A model generated the notes under the pieces. That model was given only the letters and a program-made list of their open reading frames with translations, did no database searches and had not been told where the DNA came from. A stretch of 64,000 bases of DNA, taken from positions 47,765,286 to 47,829,285 of the forward strand of contig NC_077245.1 in NCBI RefSeq assembly GCF_947179165.1, read 5' to 3'. Below are positions 2,202 through 53,581 of this stretch, one piece after another; position 1 is the first letter of the stretch, and every line of letters starts with the position of its first letter. This stretch comes from Solanum dulcamara. Taxonomy: Eukaryota > Streptophyta > Magnoliopsida > Solanales > Solanaceae. The translations under genes were made by a program, and so were the position numbers.

Positions 2202-2706
2202 CCACCTTAATTCATCATTTTGTTCATCAAGCTTTCTCAAGCAACTCTTCTCTCTATACACTTCTTTACTCATTCTCAAAATATAGTTTTAGTTCTTAGT
2301 AGTATCGAAATACTATTTCGGTGATTGATATACTCTGGATAGTACACATGTTAAACCCCATACTTTGGTACCTTGGAATGCTTCTTAAGTTTCTGAGAAG
2401 GCTCTTAAGTTTCTTAGAAGTCGTCATGTGAGTCGGGTAATCTATAACGCTATCAAATAATCCTAAGGAAAGGAGAAGAAGATACTCCATAAGAGAGAAG
2501 ATTGGAAATAGGGTTATAAGAATCCAAAAGAAGTTGTAGGTTAAGTAGTGAGTCGTAGGACTCGACTTACTTGTGAAAGCTATTATTTGGGACATTTTAC
2601 ATACTAAGATACTTGAGTACACGTCGAGCTTAAGTAGCAAGAAATACATAGGCTCTTGAAGTGAGACGAGATTACGAGCTCACGAAAGAGAAATAAGGAA
2701 ACGACG

Positions 2707-2794
2707 CACCTACTCGAAGTAAGTAGGTGATGCAACTACTTGGACCAACATGTGATGCACCTACTTAGGGTCAAGTAGGTGACACACCTACTTG
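2707..2794 (+). repeat. Inverted-repeat cluster of AAGTAGGTG / CACCTACTT in the A LTR
   Basis: Five copies of the word or its reverse complement occur in under 90 bp. The last two form a perfect 10-bp inverted repeat, caagtaggtg (2772-2781) and cacctacttg (2785-2794), separated by only 3 bp. The same hairpin is at 7213-7235 in the 3' LTR, and a 9-bp-arm version is in both LTRs of B (46083-46103 and about 53155-53175). Confidence 0.85.
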
Positions 2795-2851
2795 AGGTGG
2801 ACCCCACTTCCATTTGGCAGCATATGGGAGGCTGCATGGCGTGAGGTGGCA

Positions 2852-2920
2852 CCCTAGGGGGCTTCCACGTATCACCCCTAGGGGGCTTCCACGTGTCACC
2901 TCCAAAAGTGAGATATATAT
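2852..2920 (+). promoter_or_regulatory. Candidate LTR A promoter: duplicated 24-bp element, G-box/ABRE-like site and TATA box
   Basis: Two 23-bp near-identical copies at 2852 and 2876 (ccctagggggcttccacg core) end in ccacgtatca and ccacgtgtca. The second holds ACGTGTC (2891-2897), a plant bZIP/ABRE-like word. A TATA-like gatatatat follows at 2912-2920. The 3' LTR has the same arrangement (ACGTGTC 7331-7337, TATA 7353-7360). In element B, ACACGTGTC-like words and a TATATATA run are also present on the minus strand near 46011 and 45945. Function is inferred from spacing and conservation only. Confidence 0.55.
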
Positions 2921-4635
2921 GCTGAAATTATGACTAAGGAAATCATTTTTCAGCATCTACACTTAAGGAAAATTGGAGAAAACTTGAGGAAGAGAAGAGA
3001 GAGTCACGACAGTCACAAGAACAAGGTAGGCCCTCCAATTTCGTTCCTTGAATTAATTATTTAAGGTATATTATGGATATCGATGGGGTTTAACAACATA
3101 AAATTAATATTTGGGGAAGCAAAGAAGGGACACGAACAGTCCACAACTTTCAGCATGTTAAGGAGTTTCCGAAGTTAATTTTTAACACGTTTGGAAAGCC
3201 GTTTGTTAAGGTATGACTTGGTTCTCTTCTCCCATGTTTTAGTAAGGGTTTGTAAATGATATGAAGGTGTTAATAATGTAAAATCATGGCTTGGAGCATC
3301 ACCAAATGGATAACAAGGAGTCCGCACAATTTCAGCAAGTTTGAAGAGTTTCCGAGGCGCGATTTGGCAAGTTTGGGCCAATTTCGAGTAAGGTAAGGTC
3401 TTTGATTCCAATTTGAAGTTTATGGGGTTGTTATAGGTTTTATTACACACCTTTTATGCTTCTGGAAGTGTAAAAATGTCATAGAAATATTTAACGTTCG
3501 AAGCAAGCTAATTGGAGTCGCTATAGTTAAATTGTAGTCGAAGCAAGGTGGTGTGCTGCTGCAGGTGTGAGGTGGTGTGTTTCAGGGCCTAAAAGTATTC
3601 CAAAAGAGGTGTGGGGGCTTCTGGTTTCAGCTACACGACCCTTCGTTTCGTACAATCAAAGGTTTTGCAAAATAAGGACTAGAAACCCTATTTTGGTATC
3701 GTAATTTTTAGCAAGTGGTTTGGAGCTTATGTTGTGTAATGTTGCCATGTTTTAGTTGTATATGAGATGCAGGTTGTTGTTGTTGGTTGTATTTAGTAAT
3801 TATGGATCTAATTGGAAATTCGGATAGGGCATGATATAGGGGAGGTGTTGCCCGATTTCCGTTAACTCCTTAACTAACTAAGGAACTAGTCGAGAAGGCG
3901 AGTGAGGAGATGAGTTCTATGAATACTCATATGTAACTTAAGACACTAGAAAGTCAAGGGTTGTTGATGATCATATTTATTTCATGTTAAATAGGTTCAA
4001 GAGACGATGAGGCGAACGTGTTAAGAGTAATCCGTAAGAGGTATGTAAAGCTAACGTTTCCTTCTTTTGGCATGTTTTTGGCATAAGTATGTAAGGCTTA
4101 GACTTTCGTCTGGCATGTATTTGGCATAAGTGTATTAAGCTTATTCTATCTCTTGGCATGTTTTAGGCACAAATATGTAAAGCTAATCTTCCTTGTTGAC
4201 ATGGTTTTTATGAACCAAGTATATGACTTTTATATGATTCCAAGGAAGTTCCTATTCGTAGAGCCGCTAGGATGGCCAACTTCTGGATTTTCCAAAAGAT
4301 ATTTGTTATGCCTTGATATGTGTATATGATTATCAAAAGTTCTATTTTGATATAACCCATAGTAACTTTCAAAAGGTACTTGATATGACTATTGTCTCAA
4401 TTTTGAATGAAAGCTCATTTTAATTATTCTGTCGAGTCTCAAATATGATTTAAATTGCATATAGTTTCTCACTACTCCACTCGTGGATGCCTCAATTCTT
4501 CTTTCACCAAGCCTGAGTCAGGTTTTGTTATCATGCGTACTTCTCTGCATTGTTAGCCGTGTCCCGATGTGAGGGGGTAGGTATGACCTATACATGGGTT
4601 TGATTTGTGGAGTTATGATGTTCCATGTACATCTA

Positions 4636-4690
4636 TGATATGATATGATCTGATATGACCATTTGATATGATCTGATTTGTTATGGAGAT
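4636..4690 (+). repeat. GATATGAT-rich low-complexity patch in LTR A
   Basis: Short reiterations of tgatatgat occur here and at 9075-9120 in the other LTR. The corresponding part of B (43560-43690, 50700-50820) is a longer run of atcatcgtat words, so this is the family's unstable microsatellite-like stretch. Confidence 0.7.
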
Positions 4691-5373
4691 ATTCCCTACT
4701 CTCGAGTTATAATGTGCTGTGGCACCGGTGATGGGGCGACGACCATGATTTGTTCACCGAGTCCCATAATGGGGCCGGATATGGCATATATTTGTCCGCA
4801 TACCTTATCTGTGGTTATGATAAGCATTTTGATATTTCTGGATACTTTGCTCATTTTTGCATATTCTGCTCTGGTAATGACTTTACTTATTATAGTCCAT
4901 GCTTTACATACTCAGTACATATATCGTACTAACCTCCATTCTCTGGGGGGCTGCATTTCATGCCCACAGGTACAAATGTTCATTTTGGGGGATTTAGCGG
5001 CGTAGGATGTCCACTCAGCAATGTTGGAAGTGCTCCACTATTTTGGAGCCTAACTTTTAACGCTGGTCATTTGATTATATATTTGTTTATTCAAGGGTAC
5101 GGCGGGGGCCCTGTCCCGCCATATGATTATTTTATCATTTTGTAGAGGTCTGTAGACTTGTGTGGTGAGTTCTGTATATGTGTTTTGGGCTTGTGTTCAA
5201 CGATGGCCTTAACATCCTCCATGTGCTACATCTGTTTTTGTACGCCCTCTAGCGACACTTTTTTGGATTTCTATTTTTGTTTATTCTGCTAACACACTAA
5301 GTGGGGCTAATAGTACGTATGGGTGCCCACTTAAGCACCAGTTATGGCCTACGGAGTTGGGTCGTGACAAAAG

Positions 5374-5387
5374 TGGTTTCAGAGAAG
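5374..5387 (+). promoter_or_regulatory. Primer-binding site of element A
   Basis: tggtttcagagaag starts 5 bp after the LTR end. It matches the initiator-Met-tRNA type site TGGTATCAGAGC with a few changes; element B has the unmutated-looking TGGTATCAGAGCAG. This fixes the orientation of A as plus. Confidence 0.8.
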
Positions 5388-6485
5388 TTTGTCCTTGGAG
5401 TGTCTATAGACCGTGTCTAGTAGAGTCTTGTTTATCGGTGTTTTGTGCACCACATCTATAAACAGGAGGCTACAGGACATTTAGAATGTTACCTTTCTTT
5501 CATATCTAAGATTGTGCGATAGAGCCGAGTCATAGGGAATGAAATTCCTTATACTAACCTATGGTTTCAGTAGAAGGACAACAACGATAGAAGAAGGTGA
5601 CTGACAATATTGGAAGTTACAAAGCACGTAGTTAAGCAAAGGCATGAAAGATATATGTCAGGTGAGGTATTAAAGTACGATAGATATGAAAAGTTAAAAA
5701 TGGAAAGGAAAAGTAGACAGGGCAGGGTAACAGGTGCAGTTTGAGATAGGCAGATGAGGTAAGTCCATCATTTTTTTACAGTTGCTGATATTGGGCGCCC
5801 TGTATAACTGTGGTATTATACGATATGAATATATATGTTGGCCCTGTGAGACATTATTAGCATTTTCTGCATGCCGGTGTTGAGATAGTAAGAAATACAG
5901 AGGTAACTTTGCCCAAATTTTCCTAGAATTAAAAGGAGAATGAGATATAGGATTGTAATATATCTTGAAAGGTCGATACTGGTATAATAAAATGAAGTTG
6001 GAAAAGACTTGTGATCCTAAGAAGATGATTTAGAGATGACACCTAGATTTGGATAGAACGACATATTAAGGCACCGACTGAGTTGATACACCAGAATAAA
6101 TGGTGACGAGTTAATTACTGATTGGGGTGAATGGAATATGGCTTTAAATGCACTGCTACATTAAAGATATTACTCGAGTAATAGTGTTCAAGACTGGAGT
6201 TGGTACTATATATTGAGGATTCTAAGCACCTCATGATTGTATTAAGGTTTCATACAGGGGTAACCTAAAGTATAGGTGATGTAAAAGAAGATATAGAAAT
6301 AACGCAGTATACTAAATAGGTTGGAAAGGACTCATATGCATTTGGAAAGTTAGAAATAAACAGACAATGACATGGATACACCCTAAATGGGGGAAGTGGA
6401 CAAGATCAATCATAAGAAAAAATCAACCGACGCTATTATATGTAAATGAGAACACTTAAACTTCAAACAAGATCTCATAAGGGGT
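5388..6485 (+). other. Non-coding interior of element A, upstream part
   Basis: This 1.1-kb stretch has no open frame of note. Its first few hundred bases are recognisably homologous to the PBS-proximal interior of B (about 49680-50000 on the minus strand), for example the block around tctataaacaggaggc and the words near gacatatatc. It therefore belongs to the family and is not random filler. Confidence 0.7.
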
Positions 6486-6587
6486 GGATACGATTATACC
6501 AGCACTAATGCACTGGATCCCATCAGAACTGTGAAGTTAAACATGCTTCGGCAAGAGTAGTACTAGGATAGGTAACCCCCAGGAAGC
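6486..6587 (+). rRNA. 5S rRNA-derived segment inside element A (decayed, 3' end missing)
   Basis: The sequence follows plant 5S rRNA from its first nucleotides: ggatacgattataccagc, then actaatgcactggatccc, catcagaactg, agagtagtactaggata and ggtaacccccaggaag. About the first 100 of 120 nucleotides are represented. In the internal promoter the intermediate element agtagt is intact, while the A-box and C-box regions carry several changes (aaacatgcttcggca, ggataggtaacc). The last part of 5S is not recognisable. It lies in the sense direction of the element, 1.1 kb after the primer-binding site and about 190 bp before the polypurine tract. It is not part of a 5S tandem array and is probably not a working 5S gene. 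Element B has a second copy. Confidence 0.9.
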
Positions 6588-6775
6588 GAAAGAGGAAAGG
6601 AAACGCAAGTATCCATACCTATTCCCTACGTCGACAAGTAATCCTAACCTTTAAAACTCTGATATTGATTGCTCGATGAAAGTATATGTTATGGCAAAGG
6701 GATAGAGGAACTATCCATATAGTCGGTATAAGATCCGAAGGAAGGTTTTGGTTCACATTCGAGGACGAATATTCT

Positions 6776-6789
6776 AAAGGGGGGAAGGA
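6776..6789 (+). promoter_or_regulatory. Polypurine tract of element A
   Basis: aaaggggggaagga directly precedes the 3' LTR start TGTTACACCCC. The upstream words cattcgaggacgaat are a familiar lead-in to the tract in plant gypsy elements, and B has the same arrangement in reverse at 46509-46545. Confidence 0.85.
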
Positions 6790-9700
6790 TGTTACACCCC
6801 GTACTTTGGTACCTTGGAACACTTCTTAAGTTTTTGGGAAGGCTCTTAAGTTTCTTAGAAGTCATCATGTGAGTCAGGTAATCTATAACACTATCAAATA
6901 ATCCTAAGGAAAGGAGAAGAAGATACTCCATAAGAGAGAAGATTAAAAATAGGGTTATAAGAATTCGGAAGAAGTTGAAGGTTAAGTAGTGAGTCATACA
7001 ACTCGACTTACTTGTGAAAGCTATTACTTGGGACATTTTACAAATTAAGATACTTGTGTACACGTCGAGCTTAAGTAGCAAGGAATACATAGGCTCTTGA
7101 AGTGAGACGAGATTACGAGCTCATGAAAGAGAAATAAAGAAACAACGCGCCTACTCGAAGCAAGTAGGTGATGCACCTACTTGGACCAGCAGGTGATGCA
7201 CCTACTTAGGGTCAAGTAGGTGACACACCTACTTGAGGTGGACCCCACTACCATGTGGCAGCATATGTGAGGCTGCTGGCGTGAGGTAGCACCCTAGGGG
7301 GCTTCCACGTATCACCCCTAGGGGGCTTCCACGTGTCACCTCCAAAAGTGGGATATATATGCTGAACTTATGACTAAGGAAATCATTTTTCAGCATCTAC
7401 ACTTAAGGAAAATTGGAGAAAACTTGAGGGAGAGAAGAGAGAGTCACGACAACCACAAGAACAAGGTAGGCCCTCCGATTTCATTCCGTGAATTAATTAT
7501 TTAAGGTATACCACGGATAAATGATGGGGTTTAACAGCATTAAATTAATATTTGGGGAAGCAAGGAAGGGACATGAATAGTCCTCAACTTTCAGCATGTT
7601 AAGGAGTTTCCGAAGTTAATTTTCAGCAAGTTTGGAAAGCCGTTTGTTAAGGTATGACTTGGTTCTATTCTCCCATGTTTTATTAAGGGTTTGGAAATGA
7701 TATGAAGGTGTTAATAATGTAAAATCATGGCTTGGAGCAGAACCAAATGGATAACAAGCAGTCTGCGCAATTTCAGCAAGTTTGAAGAGTTTCCGAGGCG
7801 CGATTTGGCAAGTTTGGGCCAATTTCGGGTAAGGTAAGGTCTTTGCTTCCAATTTGAAGTTTATGGGGTTGTTATAGGTTTTATTACACACCTTTTATGC
7901 TTCTGGAAGTGTAAAAATGTCATAGAAATGTTTAACGTTCGAAGCAAGCTAATTGGAGTCACTATAGTTAAATTGTAGTCGAAGCAAGGTGGTGTGCTGC
8001 TGCAGGTGTGAGGTGGTATGTTTCAGGGCCTAAAAGTATTCCAAAAAAGGTGTGGGGGCTTCTGGTTTCAGCTACACGACCCTTCGTTTCGTACAATCAA
8101 AGGTTTTGCAAAATAAGGACTAGAAACCCTATTTTGGTATCGTAATTTTCAGCAAGTGGTTTGGAGCTTATGTTGTGTAATGTTGCCATGTTTTAGTTGT
8201 ATATGAGATGCAGGTTGTTGTTGTTGGTTGTATTTAGTGATTAGGGATCTAATTAGAAATTCGGATAGGGCATGATATAGGGGAGGTGTTGCCCGATTTC
8301 CGTTAACTCCTTAACTAACTAAGGAACTAGTCGAGAAGGCGAGCGAGGAGATGAGTTCTATGAATACTCATATGTAACTTAAGACGCTGGAAAGTCGAGG
8401 GTTGTTGATGATCATATTTATTTCATGTTAAATAGGTTCAAGAGACGACGAGGCGAACTTGTTAAGAGTAATCCGTAAGAGGTATGTAAAGCTAACGTTT
8501 CCTTCTTTTGGCATGTTTTTGGCATACGTATGTAAGGCTTAGACTTTCGTTTGGCATGTCTTCGGCATAAGTGTATTAAGCTTATTCTATCTCTTGGCAT
8601 GTTTTAGGCACAAATATGTAAAGCTAATCTTCCTTGTTGACATGGTTTTTATGAACCAAGTATATGACTTTTATATGATTCCAAGGAAGTTCCTATTCGT
8701 AGAGCCGCTAGGATGGACAACTTCTTGATTTTCCTAAAGCTATTTGTTATGCCTTGATATGTGTATATGATTATCAAAAGTTCTATTTTGATATAACCCA
8801 TTGTAACTTTCAAAAGCTACATGATATGACTCTTATCTCAATTTTGAATGAAAGCTCATTTTGATTATTCCGCCAAGTCTCAAATATGATTTAAATTGCA
8901 TATAGTTTCTCACTACTCCACTCGTGGATGCCTCAATGCTTCCTTCATCAAGCTCGGGTTAGGTTTTGTTATCATGCATACTTCTCCGCATTATTCGCAG
9001 TGTCCCTATATGAGGGGGCAGGTACGACCTGTACATGGGTTTGATTTGTGGAGTTATGATATGCCATGTACACCTATGATATGATATGATCTGATATGAC
9101 CATATGATATGATTTGATCTATTATGGAGATATTCCCTACTCTGGAGTTATGATGTGCTATGGCACCGGTGATGAGGCGGCGACCACAATTTATTCACCG
9201 AGTTCCATAATGGGGCCGAATATGGCATATATTTTTCTACATACCTTATCTGTGATTATGATAAGTATTTTGTTATTTCTGGATACTTTGCTCATTTTTG
9301 CACATTCTGCTCTGGTAATGACTTTACTTATTACAATCCATGCTTTACATACTTAGTACATATATCGTACTAACCCCCCATTCTCTAGAGGGCTGCGTTT
9401 CATGCCCGCAGGTACAAATGTTTATTTTGGGGGATCCACCGGTGTAGGATGTCCACTCAGCTATGTTGGAAGTACTCCACTATTCTGGAGCCTAACTTTT
9501 AATGCTGGTCATTTGATGTATATATTTGTTTATTCAGGGGTACGACGGGGGCCCTATCCTACCATATGATTATTCTATCATTTTATAGAGGTCTGTAGAC
9601 TTGTTTGGTGGGATCTGTATATGTGTTTTGGGCTTGTGTTCAGCGACGGCCTTAATGTCCCCGTGTGCTATATCTGTTTTCGTGCACTCTCTAGCGACCC

Positions 9701-9812
9701 TTTTTTCGATTTCTACTTTTGTTTATTCTGCTAACACGCTTAGTGGGGCTAAGGGTACATATGGGTTCCTCACTCGGGCACCAGTCACGGCCTACGGAGT
9801 TGGGTCGGGATA
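6790..9812 (+). repeat. 3' LTR of element A
   Basis: Begins TGTTACACCCC and ends gggtcgggata, where the 5' copy reads gggtcgtgaca, so its terminal CA has decayed. Length 3023 bp compared with 3021 bp for the 5' LTR. The hairpin, the 24-bp duplication, the ACGTGTC word and the TATA box are all kept. Confidence 0.9.
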
Positions 9813-11420
9813 ATACAAAATGCTCCGGCAAGGAGAAAAGGCTAGGATTCAAGTGTATTCATTAAGTCCTTCAATTCTAAGTAATGCTTTGTTTTCCAAG
9901 TATGTAAGGCTTCAATGAGAGTATTTGTTTCACTCTCATGCCTAAATTATTTAATTATATGATAAATTATATTTATTTTCATTAAGTTTTACTCTAAGTT
10001 AAGTGGGTGTTTATCAATGGGTTCTTCCACCCATATAGCCCAAAAACTATTTCAATTAAGTCTCTTGATTTCAAGTAATGTTTTCTTATTGATAATTCTT
10101 ATTTTTACTTAATAGCATGAATTATGGTTAAACTAATGATTATTGGTCTATTTTGATGCACATAATTTCATATGTATGAATTGATGGTTTGCAAGTAATT
10201 TCTCTATTTATCTCTTTAAAGGTTCTTGAAATTCATGGTGAGTTTTTTAAAGCATGATTTTTAATTAATGGATTTCAAAGTATTTATGTATATTTATTTA
10301 CATACATGTTTGGAAGTTAAAGTGATTTGAACTCACTTAGTTTTACTATGTTTTCAATAAAGTTTGACTTGGAAGCATCGACTCCAAATGAATGTTTATG
10401 AAAGCAATATCTATGATCAAAAGGGAGTCTTATGAAATGAAAGAATGATGAAATGATATGAATGATGGATTCTTTATGCAATAAGGACAATTATTGCATT
10501 TTTGAATTACCAAATGTTTTAATGATCTATTCTACCGAATATGATGTCTGAATTCTCAAGCTATATGTTATGACTATTTTGAAGTATTAAACTATTCTGT
10601 GGGTTGACTTAGCACCGAATGGGTCATTGAGGTGGGATTCGGTAAGTGAATCCTAGTAGCAACCCCTTGTCTCATTAACTATGTGCCAACATAGGAGACC
10701 TTGTAGGCTTAGGCTAATGGATCCATGAAAGCCCTTAAAGTTAAAGTTAAAGAAATAAATGAAGTTGACGGAGTTCTACCTGGAAAGTAGTCTCCCTGGC
10801 CAATGTAGGGGGTTATGTTGGATTCCATGTAATAGATCGCATGGTCTTAAATGTTGGTTATGGTAATCTTCCCACAAAATGAATGTTTTAAAGGATATCT
10901 ATATGATTTATTATGCATGCATTACATTATGTTCTATATTACATAAATGTTTTAATGTTTTCTCAATATTCATGCATCCTTACATACTTAGTATATTCAA
11001 AGTACCAACACATACTCTTTTGCCTACATGATATCACCATGTAGGGACCGGTGCTCCTCCTCGTCCTCCTCCATGTGGCTAGTTGATATTTCGTTTGAAG
11101 ACTACTTTTGGTGAGTTCCCATGTTTCGGGAACAATACTCCTTTATATTTCTAGTTTATGATATATTGAGATCTTTTACTCTGACATTTTTTCTATTATG
11201 ATTGAGGGTGAGCTAGAGACTTGTCTTAGCCCCATTAAATCTAAAAGTTAGAGGTATTGTTAGACATATGTAAGTTGAAGATTTACTATTATGATTTCCG
11301 CTTGTTCATTTATCGTCATTACCTATGAAAGGCTAAAAGAATGCTAAGAGGCTTGTTTGAGGTACTTTTGGGTTCCTCATTCGCCATGTCACGTCTAGGC
11401 CCTAGGCTTGGGTCATGACA

Positions 11421-14742: not shown

Positions 14743-14940
14743 TATCTAAAGAATATAAAATCGATTGTTAGTAAGAGGAAAACTTAGGATACTCTAGGGT
14801 ACGACATGAATTGAAAGAAGTGAAGACTTTCTTAAACGTACCATAGTCTCTTATTCATAGTTGTGGCATACTTCACAACCATGAACAAGACTCTATTTGA
14901 CGCGGTATGTTGGACTCCGAGTACCATTTCCAAACTTTAT

Positions 14941-29020: not shown

Positions 29021-29500
29021 TCAGGTGGCTTCTTTTCCAAAATGGTTCCTCCAAAGTACCTTTACTAAAGGGATTTTCTCTTTTCTAAGTTGCTTTATTT
29101 CATGAGCTTGGATCAGGATAGATTCTTTGTTATACGTCAAGTCTAGATTAACCTCAATAGATTCAACCGAAAGAACATGAGATGGATTAGAAATATATCT
29201 TCTGAGAATTGAAACATGGAAGACATTGTAGATTTTATCCAACTCAGGTGGAAAGGCTAATTTATATACAACTGGTTCCACTCTTTCAAGTATATCAAAG
29301 GGTCCAATAAATCGAGGACTAAGTTTTCCTTTTTGGTCAATTCTCATAATTTTTTTCCATGGAGATACCTTTAAGAATACTTTATTGCCAACTTGATGCT
29401 CAATATCACACCTTTTCAGGTTAGCGTATAACTTTTTCCTATCCGAAGTGATCTTTAGATGATCCTTTATTACTTTTACCTTGTCTTCCGCTTGATGCAC
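29021..29500 (-). pseudogene. Element D integrase C-terminal domain and chromodomain-like tail (single copy)
   Basis: An open stretch of 159 codons that looks undamaged. It contains the helical region HQAEDKVKVIKDHLKITSDR, the GPY/F-type block KGKLSPRFIGPFDILERVEP, the phrase VFHVSILRRYISNPSHV and a chromodomain-like tail (AHEIKQLRKEKIPLVKVLWR). Such tails direct chromovirus integrases to chromatin marks. It is the only copy of this region in D, because the repeated units stop at its upstream edge (29479). Without a connected integrase core it cannot act. It ends about 80 bp before the polypurine tract. Confidence 0.85.
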
Positions 29501-29539
29501 AATGTCCGGACCAATGAGTTTTCTTTCTCCAAGTTCACT

Positions 29540-29962
29540 CTAACAAAGAGGGGTTCAATATTTTCTTCCATATAAGGCTTCATAGGGAGGCATTCCAATA
29601 CTCACTTGGTAGCTGTTATTGTAAGCAAACTCTATCAAGGCCAAGTGTTTGTCCAAACTACCTCAAACTCAATAATGCAAGCTCGAAACATATCCTCCAA
29701 AATTTGTATCACCCTTTCCAACTGTTCGTCCTTTTGGGGATGTAATGCTAAACTTCAACTTATTATTCAACGATTCCTGTATGCTACCCCAAAATCTAGC
29801 ATGTGCTTCATTCAAGATTTCTCTCCTTAATTTGTCATCATTAGAAATGTATAACCTATTTTGGAAAAACAAGACACCATCCTCCTTTAATGCAAAATCA
29901 ATATTTTCCCCATTTTGAACTTCTTTGGTCAATATTATGAGTTTCTCATCTAGCTTTTGCAC
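29540..29962 (-). pseudogene. Element D unit 1 integrase, with a 409-bp internal deletion
   Basis: The segment holds the start of integrase (FALKEDGVLFFQNRLYISND, DKLRREILNEAHA) joined directly to the region after the catalytic core (FWGSIQESLNNKLKFSITSP). Compared with unit 2, about 409 bp are missing between 29800 and 29805, which removes the zinc-binding region and the first two catalytic acidic residues. The next frame (VIQILEDM... region, 29660-29730) is shifted. It cannot encode an integrase. Confidence 0.82.
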
Positions 29963-30600
29963 TTATTTCATCTTTTCAAGCAATATTGGCTTGACTTGAA
30001 AATTAGCAATAACCAAACCATATGAATCAAGTGTAAAACGTACATTCATGACTCTTAACTCCAGAAGCAACAACAACTGATTCAGAGATAATCTTGCGAA
30101 GGATTTGAGGCTTAAGGCATCTGCAATAACATTGGCTTTACTTGAATGATAGTCAAACATGTAGTCATAATCTTTTATGAGTTCAATCCATCTGCGTTGT
30201 CTTAATTTTATCTCTTTAAGCATACCCAAGTATTTTAAAATCTTATAATCAGTGAATATACAACATTTTCTACATACAAATAATGACTCCATATCTTTAA
30301 GGAAAACACTATAGCAGCAAGTTCTAGATCATGAGTAGGATAATTTCATTCATGTGGTTTTAATTTCCAAGAGGTATAAGAAATAAATTTCCCTTCTTGT
30401 ATCAAAACACATCCCAAACCACGATGAGAAGCATCATTATATATCACATACTCCTTCCCCTCCATTTGTAGAGTAAGTATAGGAGCTTGTGTCAACAAGG
30501 ATTTGAGCATTTAAAAGCTATCTTTGGATTTGTCATCCCAAGTAAACTTTACTTCCTTCTTCAAGAGTTTAGTCAAAGGAGAGGCTATAATGGAAAAGAC
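29963..30600 (-). pseudogene. Element D unit 1 RNase H region (broken)
   Basis: The open part 30292-29963 shows the connection and RNase H tail: [20 protein letters not shown], then [20 protein letters not shown], a standard end of gypsy RNase H. Upstream (30300-30600) the frame is broken by stops around the acidic-residue region. A short insertion in the middle (ACAACAACT words) adds residues in LLLLLELRV compared with unit 2. Confidence 0.8.
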
Positions 30601-30862
30601 TTTCACAACCTTCTTTAATATCTAGCTAACCCCAAGAAACTTCTTACCCTAGTAGGACTATTGGGGGGTTTCCATTCAGTAATTGCTTCAATTTTACTAG
30701 GATCTACCTTCACACCTTCGGTTGACACAACATGTCCCAGAAAAGCTACTTTCTTAAGCCAAAATTCACACTTGGAAAGTTTAGCATAAAGTTATTTCTC
30801 CTTCAAAATTCACAAAACAATTCGAAGGTGTTTATCATGATCTTCGCTATTCTTGGAATATA

Positions 30863-31276
30863 TTAAATATCATCTATGTAGATCACCACAAATTGATCAA
30901 TATAAGGCTTTAATATAAGATTCACTAGATCCATGAATATTGTAGGAGCATTAGTCAATGCGAATGGCATCACCAAAAATTCATAATGATCGTATCTAGT
31001 TCTAAAAGCAGTTTTAGGAACATTTTTCTCTCTAACAAGCAGTTGGTGATACCTAGATCTTAAATCAATCTTTGAGAATAAATTAGCACCCTTCAGCTGG
31101 TCCAATAAATCATCTATCCTTAGCAGTGGATATCTATTTTCTATTGTTATTTTGTTCAATTGTTTGTATTTAGTACAACGTCTAAAAGTGCCATCTTTCT
31201 TCTTTACAAACAAAATAGGAGCTCCCCAAGGAGAAACACTTGGACGGATAAAACCTTTCTCAAGAAGTTCTTGCAA
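30863..31276 (-). pseudogene. Element D unit 1 reverse transcriptase fingers and palm
   Basis: The open stretch of 137 codons covers [20 protein letters not shown] (entry), [20 protein letters not shown], the first catalytic block [13 protein letters not shown], the block [14 protein letters not shown] and the active site VVIYIDDI. The catalytic aspartates are kept. Directly after YIDDI a one-base deletion shifts the frame into a stop. The same deletion is present in units 2 and 3. Downstream RT thumb sequence (30610-30860) is recognisable only in other frames. Confidence 0.87.
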
Positions 31277-31894
31277 TTAAATTTTTAATTCCCTTAATTC
31301 TTTCGGATCCATTCTATATAGAGTGATAGAAATAGGGGTCGATCCAGGAATAAGATCGATAGCAAATTCAACTTCTCTTTCCGGTGGCAACCCAGGAAGA
31401 TTTTCTAGGAATACTTTAGGAAAATCACACACAATAGGTATGTCATTAAGACTAGGACTCTCCAAATGGGTATCAATTATATGACCAAGATATGCACCAC
31501 AACCATGACGAATCATCTTTCTTTTCAAGGCCGCAGAAATGATATTAGATGTCAATGACCATTCACCTAATATAACAATGTGAGAGAATGAAGGATTCTT
31601 AAAAGTCACATGCTTAGATCTATAATCTATGACGGCATGATATTCATAAATCCAATCCATCCTAATAATAATATTAAAATCTTAGAAAGACATTTCAATA
31701 AAATTAGCAAGGAAGACTAGGTTTTGAATCACGATGGGACAAATTTGGTAAATTCGATTACAAACAACTTGGTGACTCAAAGGACTTTTAGCTAGCACAT
31801 CATATTTAAGTCTCACAGATTTTACGCTTTCGAGAAGAACAAGTGATGAACAAATATAGGAATGTGTAGAATCAGGATCAAATAGAGTAAACAC
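31277..31894 (-). pseudogene. Element D unit 1 protease and protease-RT linker
   Basis: Two open stretches, 31894-31682 (MFTLFDPDSTHSYICSSLVL) and 31660-31277 (MDWIYEYHAVIDYRSKHVTF through LPGLPPEREVEFAIDLIPGS), are split by a stop. The catalytic motif reads LFDPDST where units 2 and 3 read LFDLGST and LFDPGST, so the conserved Gly is lost here. The linker ends with a stop (codon after ELRELKI) that is shared by all three units. Confidence 0.83.
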
Positions 31895-33323: not shown

Positions 33324-33353
33324 TATTATGAGTTTCTCATCTAGCTTTTGTGC

Positions 33354-42892: not shown

Positions 42893-45800
42893 TGTAACGA
42901 TCCAATCCTGTAGGCCGCGACTAGGGTCTGACCTGGACCTCCTTGTGCGTATCTATCAGCTACACTTAAGTTGAACCATGTGTGATGTGATACTATACAC
43001 AAACTCCAATGGGTCAAAAACCTTTTTCATAAATCTATAGCCTCATTCACCTGTATTATAACAGAAAAGGGCACACGAGCCGACGAGGTTGCCATACCAC
43101 GAAAACATTTGCAATACGTCGTATGAGCACAACTGAAACAAACTTACAAATAACCCACATACACATGTCTACAGACCTCTAAGAGTAATAACTACATCAT
43201 ATGGCGGGACAGGGCCGCCGCCGTACCCCTGAATAAATAAATATGTACATCAAATGACCAGTATCAAAAATTAGGCTCCAGAACAATAGAGCACTTTCAA
43301 CATAGCTGAGCGGAAATCCTAAGCTGACGGATCTCCAAAATGACATCTGTACCTGCAGGCATGAAATGCAGCCCCCCGAGAAAAGGGAGGTCAGTACAAT
43401 ATATGTATTGAGTATGTAAAGCATAACACATCATAACTGAGACCATAACTGAAATAGGGATGCAGGGGACAAGTATAATAATTAACAAATTACTGTACCT
43501 GCACCTTAGGACACGTAATCATATATATCATCATATACTGTGCTCGACCCTCTAGTGAACTCGGTGTCATAATCATTTTATCATATTCACATGTCATCGT
43601 ATCATCATGTATTTTACTTCATCATATCATCGTATACGACAGCATATCATCGTATACGGTATAATTTTATCGTGTATGTCATCGTATTACATCCGATTCA
43701 TTATGGGGATTGGGGTCACAAATGTATCACTCTAATCTTATATGCATGCTTATATAAAGTATTCGACCCTTTAGTGAGGGACTCAGTGAATGGAGTGGTG
43801 TACGTCTATAGAGTACCATCATAATATACATACCGTACCCGTCCCTCTAGGGAGGGAATCGGTGTTTCTTCCTTATTTCGCCACCCATACTATCATATTA
43901 TAGCTGTCCTGGGACTCGGTGAATAACCATATCGTCATAATATATATCACACCTCACGTACGGAATCGTGTCCTCATACGTGGAACTCTACACCTCCAAC
44001 CCGGGATGTGGTGAAAGAAGTAGTAAAGCTGTGCCCGACATAATATCCAGCCCATCGTGGGATGCGAAGAAAGAAGGGTTACAACATGCACGAGTAGAGT
44101 AGTGAGAAACTATATGCAACTAAGTCACCCTCTGAGACTCAATGAAACAGTCAAGTGAACTGTCACCTAAAGACAAGAAAGGTAATTATCCGAAGTGCCC
44201 TTTAGATTTCATTAGGGATTACATCAATTTGGGCCTCAGAATCACATACATGCATCACGACAATACCATATATCTCATGCAAACAAAGACCCAACTTATG
44301 CAATCAGAAGCAATTATCACCATAGAGCCTTTAGGAAGAGGAACTGGCATCTCCACTTATCATTCACTATATAGAAGGCTTGAGAATAGTAGTTTGACTA
44401 CTTTCAGACTCTTAATGTTCAGAAGTGACTACAAGTCGCGAGTTATACTCAGAGCTCATAATTGGAATTACCTCTAAATCCATATCATATATCATTTAAG
44501 TTTTCATTCTGTACATGCCAGATCATGAATTAGTAACTGCTTCCAATTTCCAAAAAATTTTCACTTAAAATTAAGCCATTCCAAAGGAAAGAAGAGATAG
44601 GCTTTACATGTACTACTTTTCATCACATAAAAGAATTAAAGGCAACAACTCAACTATTGCAGAAGTTCTAACATCAAGAAGTGGACAAGACTTATGAATC
44701 ATACTTGGAGTTTTATGAGTGGAATTATCCCCACATTTCATATACAAATCATTCATAACTTATACCTAAGACATTCCAAAAGAAAAGAAGGATAGCTCTA
44801 CTACCTGTTATGGGTTAGTCATATCCAGACTCGCTTCGGTACTCCTTTAACCTATTTAACATGAAAGTAATACTAAGGTTAGTGAATTTAGAATTTCCCA
44901 TTCCTAAATCCAAAACTAAGCACCCATAGGAATCAATTCCTTACTCGCCTTCCTCGACTAGTCTTTTAGTTAGTTACAGAGTTAATGAAAATTGGGCAGC
45001 ACCTCCCCTATAACGTGCCCTATCCGAATTTCCAATTAGATCCCTAATTATGACATCCAACCAAAAACAACAACTTGAATTTCATATATAAACAAAAATG
45101 GCAACATTACACCACATAAGCTCCACACAACTTGCTTAACATTACGATACCAAAATAGGGTTTTTAGTCGCTATTTCATAAAACCTTTAACCATACGAAG
45201 TGGGGGATTGTGTATCTACAACCAGATGCTCCCACACCTATATTATAATGCCTTTAGGCCCTGAAACACATCACCATACACCTGTAGCAACCTCCACATG
45301 CACAACGCCTTATTTCAACTATAATTTAACTATAGTTATTCTAATTTAGTTTATTTCGAACGTCGAGCATTTCTACGACATTCTTACACTTACAGAAGCA
45401 TAAAAGGTGTTTAATAAACCCTATAAAAACACCATAAACTTCAAATTGAAAGGAAATACCTTACCTTTTCCGAAATTGGCCAAAACTCGTCAAAACCCAC
45501 CTCAGAAAACCTCTTGATGTGCTGAAATAGAGTGGACCATTTGTTGTCCATTTGGTGATGCTCCAAACCTTAAATTTATATTATTAACACCCTCATAACA
45601 TTTAAAAACCCTTAACAAAATGTGGGAGAGGAGAATCAAGCCATAACTTATCAAACGGCTTCCCAAACTTGTTGAATATTAACTTCAGAACCTCCTTAAC
45701 GCGGCTGAAATTGTATGGCTGCTTGTTACTCATTTTTTATGTCCCAAATTGGTAAGTTACGTTATTAAACACCTCCACTTGATAGAAGAATACCTTATAT

Positions 45801-46508
45801 AATTAATTTATGGAGCAAAATCAGGATGTACCTCTTTTCTTTCTCCTTAAGCCGTTACCCTTTTCCTTTAGCTTTTAGGGTTTCTTTTCCTTTGCTTTTG
45901 CTACAAATTTTTGGATAGGAACTGAAGTATAAATCCCTCTCTCTATATATATACATATATAAGTGGTCTTAGGAGGTGACATGTGTCATCCCCATAGGGG
46001 GACACGTGTTCAGCCCCTATTGGGCCACAGATCTATGCCATCAAAGAGGGGCTGCCACGTGTCCTTGGTGGGGACCACCTCTAAGTAGGTGGGTCACCTA
46101 CTTGACCCTAAGTAGGTGGGTCACCTGCTTGCTTGAGGTTATGCCATGTGTCGCTCCTCCATTGGTTGCCATATTTCATCTTCTCCTCTTCCTCGTGGGT
46201 TCGTAATCTCGTCCTATTTTAAGAGCCCATGTAATCCTTACTACGCAAGATTGGTGTGTACTCAACTAGTTTAAGTATGTAAGACTTCTAAATTAGTAGC
46301 TTACGTAGGTAAATTGAGTCCTACGACTCATTACTTGGCCTCCAACTCTTTTTGACTTCTCTTGACCCAATATCCAACCTTTCCTAATATGGGGTATCCC
46401 GTTCTCCATTTCTTATATTTGTTTGATAGTGTCGTAGCTTATGAGGCTCACATGATAACTTCGAAGAACTTAAGGGACATTCCGAGCTCAAAAGTATAGG
46501 GTGTAACA
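42893..46508 (-). repeat. 3' LTR of element B
   Basis: Starts TGTAACGATCCAATCCTGTA and ends agggtgtaaca. Longer than the A LTR by about 600 bp, mainly in the atcatcgtat-rich and ctagggaggga-type zone at 43500-44100. It has the aagtaggtg hairpin at 46083-46103. Confidence 0.9.
43560..43690. repeat. ATCATCGTAT-rich microsatellite-like zone in LTR B
   Basis: Reiterated atcatcgtat, atcatcatg and gtatacg words. The same zone in the other LTR is at 50700-50820. It corresponds to the tatgatatgat patch of element A LTRs. Confidence 0.75.
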
Positions 46509-46741: not shown

Positions 46742-47195
46742 CTAATTGCCGACCCATGATGGTGATAGGTTTCTCCTCATAGGATAACTCCCTGTTACGT
46801 GGACCTCCTCTATAGAAAATATTCTGGGAAGGTCATTTATATACTTGCGGAGCATTGACCCGTAAAAAATTGGATATATTGCTTCCAAATCCGCTGGTAG
46901 GTCCAACTCATAGGTAGTTTTTCTTATATTACAACTGATTTGATAAGGTCCAATGTATTTTGGGCTAAGTTTCCCTTTCTGGCTGCATCTTTTTACTCCT
47001 TTCATTAGTGAGGCTTTTAAGAACTCCCACTCACCTACTTCAAACTCTACGGGTCGACGTTAATTATCTGTGTATGACTTTTGTCGACTCTAGACTGTTA
47101 ATAGTTTTTCCTGAATAAGCTTTACTTTATCAATAATTTAGTGGACCATATCTAGGCCTATCCAGTTCCAAGTCGGAATTTCTATCTCCTGTAAT
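46742..47195 (-). pseudogene. Element B integrase remnant with an internal deletion
   Basis: Reading on the minus strand: QEIEIPTWNW (start of the integrase core) is fused directly to a helical stretch (GLDMVH, IIDKVKLIQEKL) and then to the C-terminal GPY/F-type block, open from 47005 (MKGVKRCSQKGKLSPKYIGP) to SMLRKYINDLPRIFSIEEV. The whole catalytic core between these parts is missing. The start has stops. This shows that the family descends from a chromovirus with a normal pol that has been deleted. Element A has lost this fragment as well. Confidence 0.83.
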
Positions 47196-47199: not shown

Positions 47200-48700
47200 C
47201 ATTCAACTTCTGATATCCGATCTTATTCAAGCTATTTCACAATTTCTCTTATGCCAACTTGTAATACTCTAGGTATATTCCACTGTGCCTTTACTCAGAT
47301 TTTCTTTCTAATTCTCTTACCCCACATCATATCGCAATCCTTACATGAGTATGTGTAGGTGATTAGTCAGTTTCAAAGATGTCGTAGCATAGCTATACTA
47401 GTCTCTTACCTTCTTCAGTTGAGGTCAGGGCTCCACTATGGCTTTTATCCTTAATACTGATTATATCTTAATAGTTCTACCTCATCTTATACTTTTTTAA
47501 TAGATTCTAATTATGGCACTCATATTGCTATTACTGACTTCTTTTTATCGAGTAATCACTTGATCTTACTCTTAGTATGCCAATGTTCATAAGCCGCACA
47601 ACTATTCTTGTGCAATTTACACGAAGTGCATTCCATTTTAGTCATAGTCTTTCCTGCTCTTGGCTTACTCTGTTCTATATGTGTTATTGTACTAGCACAC
47701 ACTTACAGTACTAGCACACACCTACACTCTCTTTTGTCATACTTGTTTTGCTTCCTTCACTTACTCTTAAGTCCTCTCGTATTCCAATATAGGAGAGATT
47801 TCTTATCCTTTCTCTTTTGCTACTTGTATATCACAATGTCAGTAGCCAGTAACTCTATTACCAACATCCTAACCTTTAGTCAAGTGTAGCCTGGCTATCC
47901 CTTATAATATCTTCAAGTTCTCATTGTGATTCTTTTGTTGTATTCATCCCTTTTGTATGCACTCATCCTTTGATGTCATACTATTCAAGGTCCTTACTAA
48001 TAATTCTCAACACTATCTCCGGTATCATGGCTTCTATTCGTTCATTATTGGCTTTTAAATCTTGTTAACTTGTACCAGTATGGGATATCACCTGAAACCA
48101 CTTCCCCCCTTTAAGGTGTTCCCATGTCACTATCTGTTTGTGTTCTACCTTACGACCCTATTTCAAATTTCAAACGCGTATGATTCTTTCCCAACACATT
48201 TAGTATATTGCACTATATCTATGCCTTCCTTTATATCATCCATACCTTTGGTTGCCCATATACGATATCTCAACATAATCGTGAGGTGCTATTCCAGTCT
48301 AATTGTTGGTATTCGAGTCATGTAGCAATAAATATACAAAGCCACCTCCTATTTGTCCCCACCAGTGACTAGCTAGCGGTCATAATCATTTCAACTTCTC
48401 CATTCGGAAGTACTTGTACTCCAGTGACCCATCCTCCTAGCTCTTCTATGAAACTATCTTCACCCCAATGGGTACCACTTGTTCCTCTTAATAGACTCGC
48501 AACGAATCAATGATTTTGTAGGGCCACCTCCCTCATCCTTGAGGGGTCTTTATATTTTCTATGGCGGAACCATATATCCATAATACTTCTTTACACCAAC
48601 AATACCATATAAGGCTAATGTATATATATATGTATATCATCTCATATCACAACCACAATGCTTCACAAGCCTAATATATACGTATGTTCACAGCATCTCA
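47200..48700. other. Element B interior without recognisable coding
   Basis: T-rich sequence on the plus strand with many short open stretches that differ in character from known retroelement proteins. No pol, gag or host-gene motif recognised on either strand. Its reverse complement is A- and purine-rich, like the leader regions of large non-autonomous elements. Confidence 0.5.
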
Positions 48701-48704: not shown

Positions 48705-48813
48705 CCAGCAGCACAGGGATTCCCAGGGGGTCATCCATCCTTTTGCTATTCTCTCCCAAGCACGCTTAACTTCTGATGGGATTCAGTGCGTTAGTATTGA
48801 TATGATTATATCC
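48705..48813 (-). rRNA. 5S rRNA-derived segment inside element B (nearly full length, small deletion)
   Basis: Read on the minus strand it starts ggatataatcatatcaatac, continues gcactgaatcccatcagaag, ttaagcgtgcttgggagaga, aaggatggatgaccccctgg and ends near gtgctgc, following plant 5S rRNA to about its last 10 nucleotides. About 7 bases are missing after catcagaa (the ctccgca region). The A-box is well kept (aagcgtgcttggga), the C-box has one or two changes (ggatggatgacc) and the intermediate element reads aatagc. Orientation is the same as the element. It lies about 1.2 kb after the primer-binding site, close to the distance in element A. Confidence 0.9.
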
Positions 48814-50004
48814 TGCCCCGTAGGGCGTATAGCTTCCAACAAAGATGATGACCCAGTAGCTGATCCGGTAGGCCAAGCTGCACCGCCCAAGTTACCCTTA
48901 TATTCTTATTACACGGACCACATCCCATCTTTAGCCACTTTCTCACTAGGATTTACTTATTTTCATAACGATCCTCGTTATATTCACATTATATCCTATT
49001 CGTATTCTACCCCATCGTATAATATTTCTCAACCTTTTTCACGATTCTGACTATGGGTTACTTACCTTTCTTAGTTAGTCTTATCCTTAATGTCTCACCA
49101 GCTGTCTTATTAATACTTCATATCCGTCACAATTCTATTTCCCTTGTACCCTTATCTTAATCATATTGTTACTTTTCTTAATTATAGCTCATCACAGTTT
49201 ATACCTGTGTATCAATTCTGCCGGCGCCTTAATATATCATTCTATTCAGATCTATCAGTCTTTCCTAATTCATTTTCTTAGGGTCACTAGTTTTTTCCAA
49301 ATTCATTCTACCATACCAGTATGGACCTCCAAGTTTCTATTACCGTCAATTCAGCAATTAATTTATTTCTAGGGGTCAGCCACAGTCGTAGTTTAATCAA
49401 ATCTCATTATTGTTGTGGGCACAACCTTTAAAGACATACTACAACCCTATATCTCATTCTCTTCTTATTTCTAGGAAAATTTGGATAGAGTTTCCTCTGT
49501 ATTTCTTACTACCTCAACACCTGCACCCAGAAAATGCCAACATTGCCTCACAGGGCACGCATGTATATATTCAGATCATATCAAACAACATCCACACGGG
49601 GCACCCATAATTAATAATATGGAAATGGACTTACCTCATATATCCACTCGAACTACACTTGTTACACTCTTCCTGTATACTTTTTCTTTCACTTTTTAAC
49701 TTTATATGTCGATCGCATTTCAACACCTTACCTGACATATGTCTTTCGTGCCTTTGCTTACCTGTGTACTTTGCAACTTCCAATATCGTCAGTTACTTGC
49801 TTCTACAGATGTGGTCCTCCTGCTAAAATCACAGGTTAGTATGAGGAATTTCACTTCCTATGACTCAGCTCTATCGCACGATCTTAGATCTGAAAGAAAG
49901 TAACATCCTAAATGTCCTGTAGTCTCATGTCTATAGATGTGGTGCACAACACACCGATAAACAAGACTCTACTAGACACGGTTTGTAGACACTCCAAGGA
50001 CGAA
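48814..50004 (-). other. Element B non-coding interior between primer-binding site and 5S segment
   Basis: No gag reading frame. The last 300 bp before the primer site match the equivalent zone of A (shared ctataga, gtgtctagtagagtcttgt-like words). Sequence closer to the 5S segment is not clearly alignable with A by eye. Confidence 0.6.
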
Positions 50005-50018
50005 CTGCTCTGATACCA
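50005..50018 (-). promoter_or_regulatory. Primer-binding site of element B
   Basis: On the minus strand TGGTATCAGAGCAG lies 4 bp inside the LTR. It is an unmutated-looking initiator-Met-tRNA type site. Confidence 0.88.
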
Positions 50019-50022
50019 CTTC

Positions 50023-53000
50023 TGTCAAGACCCAACCCCGTAAGCCGCGACTGGGGTCTGACTTGGAACCCCTCGTGCGTATCTATCAGCTACACTTAAG
50101 TTGAACCGTATGTGATGTGATACTATACACAAACTCCAATGGGTCAAAAACCTTTTCTTAAACCTGTAGCCTCATTCACCTGTATCATAATAGGAAAGGG
50201 CACGCGAGCCAATGAGGCTGCCATACCACAAAAACATTTGCAATACGTCATATGAGCAAAACTAAAACAAACTTATAAATAACCCATATACATATGTATA
50301 CAGACCTCTAAGAGTAATAACTGCATCATATGGCGGGACAGGGCCCCCACCGTACCCCTAAATAAATAAATATGTACATCAAATGGCCAGTATAAAAATT
50401 AGGCTCTAGAACAGTGGAGCACTTCCAACATAGCTGAGAGGAAATCCTAAGCTGACAGATCTCCAAAATGAACATCTATACCTGCGGGCATGAAACGCAG
50501 CCCTCCGAGAAAAGGGAGGTCAGTACGATATATGTAGTGAGTATATAAAGCATAACACATCATAACTGAGACCATAACTGAAATAGGGATGCAGGGGACA
50601 AGTATAATAATTAACAAATTACTATACCTGCACCTTAGGACACGTAATCATATATATCATCATATACTATGCCCGGCCCTCTAGTGAACTCGGTGTCATA
50701 ATCATTTCATCATATTCACATATCATCGTATCATCATGTATTTTACTTCATCATATCATCGTATGTGGCATCATATCATCGTATATGGTATAATCTTATC
50801 ATGTATGTCATCGTATTACATCTGGTTCATTATGGGGCTCGGGGTCACAAATGTATCACTCTAATCTCATATGCATGCTTACATAAAGTATTCAGCCCTT
50901 TAGTGAGGGACTCGGTGAATGGAGTGGTGTACATCTGTAGCGTACCATCATAATATACATACTGTACCCGGCCCTCTAGGGAAGGACTTAGTGTTCTTTT
51001 CTTATTTCGCCACCCATACTATCATATTACATCCGGCCCGGGACTCAGTGAATAACCGTATCTTCATAACATTTATCACACCTCATGTACGAAATCATCT
51101 CTTCGTGCATGGAACTGTACATCTCCGGCCTGGGATGTAGTGAAAGAAGTAGTAAAGCTGCACCTGACATAATATCCAGCCCATCGTGGGATGCGAAGAA
51201 AGAAGGGTTACAGCATGTACGAGTAGAGTAGTGAGAAACTATATGCAACTAAGTCACCCTCTGAGACTCAATGAAACAGTCAAGTGAACTGTCACCTGAA
51301 GACCAGGAAGGTAATTATTCGAAGTGCCCTTTAGATGTCATTAGGGATTACATCAATTGCGGCCTTAGGAATCATAGACATGTTTTAAGATAATACCACA
51401 TAGCTCATGCAAACAAAGACCTAACTTATGCAATCAGAAGCAATTATCACCATAGAGCCTTTAGGAAGAAGAGCTGGCATCTCCACTTACCATTCACTAT
51501 ATATAAGGCTCGAGAATAGTAGTTTGACTACTTTCAGACTCTTAATGTTCAGAAGTGACTACAAGTCACGAGTTATACTCAGAGATCATAATTGGAATTA
51601 CCTCTAAACCCATATCATATATCATTTCACTTAAAATTAAGCCATTCCAAAGGAAAGAAGATATAGGCTTTACATGTACTACTTTTCATTACATAGAAGA
51701 CTTAAAGGCAACAACTCAGCTATTGCAGGAGTTCTAACATCAATAACTAGACAAGACTTATGAATCATACTTGGAGTTTTATGAGTGGAATTATCCCCAC
51801 ATTTCATATACAAATCATTCATAACTTATACCTAAGACATGCCAAAAGAAAAGAAGGATAGCTCTACATACCTGTTATGGGTTAGTCGCATCCAGACTTG
51901 CTTCGGTACTCCTTTAACCTATTTAACACGAAAGTAATACTAAGGTTAGTGACTTTCGACTTTTCTGTTCCTAAATCCACAATTAAGTACCCATAGGAAT
52001 CAATTCCTTACTCGCCTTCCTCGACTAGTCTCGACTAGTCTTTTAGTTAGTTACGGAATTAATAAAAATCGGGCAGCACCTCCCCTATAACGTGCCCTAT
52101 CTGAATTCATAATTAGATCCCTAATTACTATAGACAACCAAAAAAAACAACCTTTAGATCATATACAAACAAAACATGAAAACATTACACCACATAAGTT
52201 CCACACAACTTGCTTAATATTACGATACCAAAATAGGGTTTTAGTCGCTATTTCATAAAACCTTTAACCGTACGAAGAAAGGGATTGTGTGTATGCAAAC
52301 AGAAGCTCCCACACCTATTTTAAAATGACTTTAGGCCCTGCAACCTACCACCACACACCTGCATCATCCCCCACATGCACAATGCCTCATTTCGACTACA
52401 ATTTAACTATAGCGATTCCAATTTAGTTCATTTTGAATGTCGAGCATTTCTATGACATTATTACACTTCAAGAAGCATACAAGGTGTGTAATACACCCTA
52501 TAAAAACACTATAAACGTCAAATTTAAAATAAATACCTTACCTTTCCCTAAATTGGCCAAAACTCGCTAAAACCCTCCTCGGAAAACCTCTTGATGTGCT
52601 GAAACGGAGTGGACTGTTTGTTGTCCGTTTGGTGCTGATACAAACCTTAAATTTACATTATTAAAACCCTCATAACATTTACAAACCCTTAACAAAATGT
52701 GGGAGAAGATAATCAAGCCATAGCTTATCAAACGGCTTCCCAAACTTATTGAAAATTAACTTCGGAACCTCCTTGACGCGGCTGAAATGTTGTGGCTGAT
52801 TGTTACTCATTTTTTCTGCCCCAAATAGGTAAGTTACATTATAAAACACCTCCACTTGATATAAGAATACTTTAGATAATTAATTTACGGAGAAAAATTA
52901 GGATGTACCTCTTTTTTTCTCCCTAAGCCGTCACCCTTTTCCTTTAGCTTTTAGGGTTTCTTTTCCTTTGTTTTTGCTGCAGATTTTTGGATAGGAACTG

Positions 53001-53581
53001 AAGTATAAGTCCCTATTATATATATATATATATAAGTGGTCTTATGAGGTGACATATTTCATCTCCATAGGGTGACACGTATCCAGCCCCTATTGGGCCA
53101 CAAATCCATGCAATCAAGGAGGGGCTGCCACGTGTCCTTGGCGGGGCCCACCCCCAAGTAGGTGGGTCACCTACTTGACCCTAAGTAGGAGGGTCACCTG
53201 CTTGCTTGAGGTTCTGCCACGTTTCTCTCCTTCATCGGCTGCCATATGTCGTCTTCTCCTCTTCCTCATGGGTTCGTAATCTCATCCTATTTTAAGAGCC
53301 CATATAATTCTTGCTACGCAATCTTGGTGTGTACTGAACTAGTTTAAGTATGTAATACTTCTAAATTAGTATCTTACGTAGGTTAATTGAGTCCTACGAC
53401 TCATTAATTGGCCTCCAATTCCTTTCGACTTCTCTTGATCCTATTTCCAACCTTCCCTACTATGGGGTATCCCATTCTCCCTATCTTAGATTTGTTTGAT
53501 AGTGTCGTAGCTTATGCTGCTCACATGATAACTTCTAAGAACTTAAGGGACATTCCGAGATCAAAAGTGTGGGGTGTCACA
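50023..53581 (-). repeat. 5' LTR of element B
   Basis: Starts TGTCAAGACCCAACCCCGTA and ends gggtgtcaca, about 3.56 kb. It is colinear with 42893-46508. It has the hairpin aagtaggtg-ggt-cacctactt near 53155 and a TATATATA run near 53018-53034. A small tandem copy of cgactagtct is at 52020-52040 (ctcgactagtctcgactag). Confidence 0.9.

Follow-up and report, generated by a model that had tools for sequence, protein, structure and literature searches.

Sense 5S rRNA segments between the LTRs of non-autonomous, long-LTR retrotransposons in Solanum dulcamara: probable captures of 5S RNA by template switching

How does a piece of ribosomal RNA come to lie between the long terminal repeats (LTRs) of a retrotransposon? 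The question is raised by a 64,000-nucleotide stretch of DNA (the window; C9:47765286-47829285), studied here within one genome only, of 942,432,443 bases (942 Mb). At 6486-6586 on the forward strand, the window carries a 5S rRNA segment—5S positions 1-102, in the sense orientation—between the 3-kb LTRs of a retrotransposon of ~7.5 kb (element A). The original prediction had placed a sense 5S match of about 100 nt inside this element, at 6486-6587; the match and its start hold exactly, and the end lies one base earlier, at 6586. A total of 1115 bases separate the 5' LTR from the 5S, with the 3' LTR 0.3 kb further on.

The match rests on several comparisons. In a 2-kb search, the Rfam model RF00001 matches 6492-6613 with 37.0 bits (E 1.7e-05); because this is one bit under the cut of 38, a whole-window scan at gathering cut-offs is empty. 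Comparison by blastn with a 5S query (not taken from a database record) gives 81/93 identities (E 2e-28). The local alignment score is 145; when the A interior was shuffled base by base 200 times, no score exceeded 33, which rules out a chance match. A genuine 5S array was found on contig C7 with a 5S query, with many neighbouring units 341 bp apart (40 of 1474 candidates scored); the reference 5S gene sequence and its edges were read from twelve units of this array. Aligned to the genome's own 5S genes, as the original prediction had proposed, the A segment is identical at 88/101 positions over 5S positions 1-102. At 87% identity to the genuine gene, element A's own 5S is the lowest among the 22 segments of its type that were studied, and the family is therefore better judged from the other copies.

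A second 5S segment, at 48813-48707 on the minus strand (Rfam 30.1 bits, E 0.002), lies inside a related element, B, and carries a private 7-base deletion. The features of both elements are collected in Table 1. Element A is about 7.5 kb long, with an interior of 1.4 kb; element B is about 10.7 kb, with LTRs of about 3.6 kb and an interior of 3.5 kb. The primer-binding site of A is one that we take to be of the initiator-Met type, and element A was not found to be flanked by a target-site duplication.

Table 1. Coordinates of elements A and B and their parts in the window.
Feature	Position	Strand	Basis or remark
5' LTR of A	2348..5370	+	93.5% identical to 6789-9813
Leader of A, starting with primer-binding site	5371..5973	+	81% identical to B 50021-49424
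"Mid" segment of A, before 5S	6225..6399	+	Homologous to B 48290-48098; in 20/20 fetched copies, partial in L012
"Pre5S", 86 bases, in A-type copies	6400..6485	+	In 20/20 fetched copies; no match in B interior
5S rRNA segment, positions 1-102, sense	6486..6586	+	Rfam, blastn, shuffles, own 5S genes, junction counts
"Post5S", element sequence directly after 5S	6587..6752	+	6589-6740 matches B 46693-46552
Polypurine end of A interior	6753..6788	+	A 6752-6788 95% identical to B 46546-46510
3' LTR of A	6789..9813	+	Pair of 2348-5370
5' LTR of B	50024..53581	-	Ends read by eye
Leader of B with primer-binding site	49424..50021	-	Homology to A leader
Second 5S segment, position 1 to about 114	48707..48813	-	Rfam, shuffles, alignment to 5S gene
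"Mid" segment of B, after its 5S	48098..48290	-	Homology to A mid
Gypsy-type integrase C-terminal remnant, 105-aa open frame	46742..47059	-	Pfam PF24626 SH3_Tf2-1, E 9.9e-17
3' LTR of B	42893..46508	-	Ends read by eye

The interior of A holds no frame of at least 70 aa wholly inside it, save one antisense frame of 111 aa, and B retains a 105-aa integrase remnant that matches the SH3 domain of Tf2-1-like integrases; given this match to PF24626, the group derives from gypsy-type elements. Relatives of the remnant were sought across the genome, and 150 of 33544 candidates were scored. The 14 closest share 77-100% identity and span 105-112 aa, as frames either open or broken; nine are stop-free, with no longer frame surviving there; the other 136 are 53-69% identical, some in frames of up to 1631 aa. 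With close matches short and long ones distant, no close autonomous partner was identified among these 150 of 33544. Long LTRs, a primer-binding site and a polypurine end—among the features by which LARDs are recognised—are all present in the A/B family. As judged from these sequence features, the element behaves like a non-autonomous, LARD-like, long-LTR retrotransposon and is not a Cassandra.

The window holds three further structures. Within the B interior, at 48113-48092 (minus strand), a stretch resembling a polypurine end passes into one resembling a primer-binding site, each matching its counterpart in A exactly (13/13 for the polypurine end, 12/12 for the primer-binding site); this is perhaps a fused remnant of two elements. 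A short leader-like fragment at 14812-14924 (minus strand; 72% to the A/B leaders) points to yet another relative within the window. Finally, a unit of about 3.39 kb occurs three times head-to-tail at 29475-38800, many of its blocks being 89-96% identical.

Across the genome, and with up to three mismatches, the A-type left 5S/element junction occurs at 558+563 = 1121 places and the right junction at 384+417 = 801, where reversed-pattern controls for both give 0. The B-type left junction occurs at 64+61 = 125 places (control 0). Pattern scans of IMG/VR and GTDB contigs returned no matches. A 211-base query around A's 5S yielded 2076 candidates; the best 40 scored match all or nearly all of the query, and the 39 other than A are 87-89% identical to it. 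Twenty of these 39 were fetched, at about 9.9 kb each. In all 20, the order is mid, pre5S, 5S, post5S (mid is partial in L012), which bears on the question, raised with the original prediction, of whether most copies of the family carry the 5S at the same position. The start of an LTR follows post5S in 19/20 (it is missing in L016, and that of L014 is matched only from LTR base 55 onward), and a leader lies upstream in 19/20 (partial in L016, L018 and L025, absent in L028).

From these data two samples were drawn: (i) an A-type sample of 22 segments, consisting of A and 21 segments from the 20 loci (themselves from the best 40 of 2076 candidates), and (ii) a B-type sample of 16 of the 41 matches scored, among 508 candidates. 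Both are biased to query-like copies whose members are related, and the p-values given below are therefore rough and overstate significance. Some loci are compound. L024 is a tandem of three LTRs and two interiors with a 5S in each, and at C5:54416113-54427759 three B-type 5S matches follow one another at intervals of about 5.7 kb. In L016 there is a further, antisense 5S-like segment (3112-3000, minus to the oriented locus; positions 5-116, 78%), 52 bases outside the 5' LTR of the A-type copy. It is neither A- nor B-type, and is perhaps a Cassandra.

Searched alone, at equal length and tolerance, the post5S motif occurs at 330+349 places; this count gives no sign of a large 5S-less population, with the proviso that motif conservation may differ. 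Two leaders related to those of A and B stand without a sense 5S in the sequence fetched (L014 8508-9901 and L016 335-3163). An exact empty A-type site was found at 0 places genome-wide (up to three mismatches); template switching does not require one.

The A-type and B-type 5S segments occupy different placements. The mid segment lies upstream of the 5S in A but downstream of it in B, so that the two arrangements are non-colinear, and about 1.4 kb of B sequence is absent at A's 5S position. The post5S of A matches the end part of the B interior (score 74, reached by 0/300 shuffles, the highest being 71), whereas pre5S has no match in the B interior, its score being reached by 275/300 shuffles. 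Compared with the flanks in A, those of the 16 B-type segments show no alignment (local scores of 12-22, taken without a shuffle control). The right ends also differ: 5S position 102 or 103 in 22/22 A-type segments, and alignments to 106-114 in 16/16 of the B-type. So do the substitutions. C47T, at a site in a CpG, is carried by 20/22 A-type segments and also by 3/16 B-type segments (L031, L048 and L050), and the B-type shares C14T, G31A and G72A (each in 11/16) and T76C (12/16), all four of which are lacking in a second B-type clade (L053-L056). The best identity to today's 5S gene is 97% for the A-type and 94% for the B-type; the backbones of A and B share about 71-83%. Read from these placements, ends and substitutions, the simplest account is probably two captures, of which that of the B-type is probably the older.

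The ends of the segments bear on whether the source was an RNA or a gene. The left end lies at 5S position 1 in 18/22 A-type and 14/16 B-type segments, and at position 2 or 3 in the others; by comparison with genomic 5S units, no rDNA spacer is attached to either type. Were the 341-bp rDNA unit cut at random, the odds of two left ends falling exactly at +1 would be about 1 in 100,000 (by hand arithmetic). Abutting direct repeats of at least 4 bp are absent in 37/38 segments, including all 22 A-type; for the B-type this test of target duplication is weak because the right junction is blurred by divergence. A boundary at an RNA end without target duplication, the combination by which template switching is judged, is thus found, the B-type right end being uncertain. 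The original prediction had named as its alternative a chance later insertion, confined to one or two copies and flanked by its own target duplication; the 1121 and 801 junction places, the fixed site in 20/20 copies and the lack of flanking duplication rule this out.

On this evidence, we consider it probable that A and B are related, non-autonomous, gypsy-derived groups with long LTRs in which 5S RNA was captured at least twice by template switching, with amplification and exchange to follow, and that the 5S is now most likely a passenger. Reverse transcriptase, while copying element RNA, would switch onto a co-packaged 5S rRNA, copy it as far as the 5' end, run off, and resume on another stretch of RNA. 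A minus-strand switch of this kind, ending in fall-off at the 5' end, would give what is seen: an exact +1 left end, a right end that differs with each event (102 in the A-type, 106-114 in the B-type), no duplication, and possibly some loss of sequence. There would have been at least two separate events; the 5S-bearing module would later have been amplified and swapped among LTR backbones, and the 5S in present copies would most likely be a passenger. PMC4997597 describes the packaging of 5S rRNA in murine leukaemia virus and the uptake of host RNA by template switching, and PMC13317346 describes template switching in plant LTR retrotransposons. Against capture, the packaging of 5S RNA in particles, known from retroviruses, would have to carry over by analogy to plant elements, and capture does not account for the 86-base pre5S.

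Individual copies are consistent with the swapping of modules. In L018, leader and mid resemble those of B (83-91%) but are joined to an A-type pre5S-5S-post5S module, and L012 has a leader and mid of 73-77% identity to A beside a module of 87-90%. For the 22 segments, identity averages 78.8% over the initial 500 bases of the LTR next to them, versus 88-90% for the interior modules; LTR distance shows no correlation with 5S distance (r = -0.14) but does with post5S distance (r = 0.52). These chimeric copies, and the mismatch between LTR and interior, fit recombination during replication, to which unequal rates of change could add. LTR pairs were obtained for 18 of 21 loci (the 20 fetched plus A), with K2P distances of 0.030-0.137 and a mean K/2 of 0.039; those of L012, L016, L021, L024 and L025 are partial or come from tandem or nested copies, and L014, L018 and L028 have no LTR pair above 80%. 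Of three target-duplication hits, that of L023 alone has TG..CA ends. The divergence of the 5S does not track that of the LTRs (r = -0.09).

Does selection keep the 5S? At 0.899, the mean pairwise identity of the A-type 5S lies within the range of its neighbours (0.857-0.925), and changes at C/G sites are equally frequent in the 5S (131/1231) and post5S (161/1496). Changes at A/T sites are fewer in the 5S (7/990) than in pre5S (56/1186; p 4e-9) and mid (90/2374; p 9e-8, or p 0.06 without L012 and L018), but not clearly fewer than in post5S (27/2111; p 0.20). Between the B-type clades, the 5S (0.816) is less similar than the upstream flank (0.853) and more similar than the downstream flank (0.735). 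In the A-type, 117/147 changes are C>T or G>A, an excess that is the usual mark of decay in methylated DNA. For the boxes of the internal promoter, the positions of box A and IE in the 5S segments are those we assume for them. Pooled, all boxes change at C/G sites much as the rest of the 5S does (45/374 vs 97/871); box A (22/154) and IE (16/88) lie above the rest, and box C (7/132) below it (p 0.045, uncorrected and with non-independent copies). Box C (AGGATGGGTG, the motif being taken from PMC10853983) is intact in 16/22 A-type segments and all three boxes in 2/22. In 19/22, a TTTT is first reached 257-261 nt from +1, and would allow a short putative Pol III transcript. Taken together, this mixed evidence points mostly to a decaying passenger, Pol III promoter use being putative; the low A/T change relative to pre5S and mid, and the few C/G changes in box C, speak against a pure passenger.

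Other origins have to be weighed against capture from RNA. A single ancestral capture, later relocated within the interior by rearrangement, could have given both types: their backbones are related, both segments are in sense and begin at +1, L018 shows that modules recombine, and C47T, lying in a CpG, recurs in the B-type. On the other side stand the absence of a common flank, the unlike right ends and the unlike shared substitutions, and we regard one relocated capture as unlikely. Joining of a 5S rDNA stretch into the element at the DNA level (by recombination, through circular DNA or during repair) is plausible in general, such routes being proposed for Cassandra in PMC10853983, yet both types start at base 1 of the RNA without any spacer, which makes this origin improbable. 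A derivation of the segment from a Cassandra element is scarcely tenable. Cassandra is widespread in plants according to PMC10886601, and the L016 flank holds a 5S-like segment of neither type; however, the A-type segments span positions 1-102 and reach 97% identity to the 5S genes of this genome, as against the ~70-bp core shared by Cassandra elements in PMC10853983. Cassandra is set apart here by such published descriptions.

Three further proposals give the 5S a function. The original prediction had offered, beside capture of 5S RNA during reverse transcription, a Pol III promoter once used by the element. The 5S may indeed have been adopted as an internal Pol III promoter, used now or formerly, as in Cassandra; its sense orientation, complete 5' end, largely intact box C and downstream TTTT would all suit this role. 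Lying after the primer-binding site, however, it would start an RNA that is no full template for replication; the boxes together change like the rest, and conservation of the entire 5S does not exceed that of its neighbours. Capture is the better supported of the two origins, and we hold promoter use to be improbable. As part of the element's RNA, the segment might instead act as a 5S mimic that binds L5 or TFIIIA. Plant TFIIIA pre-mRNA contains such a mimic, bound by L5 (PMC5568362), and most of the 5S length is kept in the B-type. The A-type, with more junction places, stops at 102, without the 3' strand of the terminal helix, and we hold a mimic to be very improbable. Finally, the repeated captures and their spread may be no accident: the cassette could be advantageous, for example by drawing 5S-binding proteins to the element RNA to aid its export, localisation or packaging, and so form a selected module moving between LTR backbones. 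We think this improbable.

Under our preferred reading, capture by template switching, these elements preserve in their sequence the entry of a structural ribosomal RNA into LTR retrotransposons, probably on two occasions or more; the source indicated by the junctions is the RNA, not the gene. This makes two questions testable: the choice of small RNAs packaged in particles of plant retrotransposons, and the origin of new non-autonomous groups. In practice, when "5S" signals turn up scattered through plant genomes, in FISH or in small-RNA data, their source may be a retrotransposon copy and not rDNA or Cassandra.

In the literature searched, which leaves most subscription journals outside, we found no published 5S segment lying between the LTRs of a long-LTR element and no LARD with a 5S segment. 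Small-RNA sequences are described in the LTRs of miniature elements, namely Cassandra, Ajax and Helenus (PMC10886601, PMC10853983 and PMC7215508). The original prediction's claim that the present placement differs from that of Cassandra agrees with Cassandra as these papers describe it: there the 5S lies in the middle part of short LTRs, in elements under 1 kb (565-860 bp in PMC10886601), whereas here one 5S per interior lies between the 3-kb LTRs of A, as it also lies between the LTRs of B (about 10.7 kb, to A's 7.5 kb) and of 20/20 fetched A-type copies. The nemertean TRIM Ajax is likewise a non-autonomous LTR element with 5S rRNA-derived sequence, but is an animal element of 421-434 bp that carries it in the LTR. 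SINE3 shares a 5S rRNA-derived segment with the present retroelements; it has no LTRs and uses the 5S as a 5' promoter head (PMC10886601), and is ruled out here by the position of the segment inside LTR elements and by the lack of flanking duplication in 22/22 A-type segments. LARDs, as PMC7215508 describes them, have long LTRs, a conserved non-coding interior and need of a helper; the A/B family shares the long LTRs and may share the other two features. Similar in the proposed manner of origin are the template-switch chimeras of the plant LTR retrotransposons Veju and BARE-2, in which foreign RNA sequence was joined during reverse transcription (PMC13317346); there the donors were an unknown sequence and another retrotransposon, and here the donor would be a structural rRNA.
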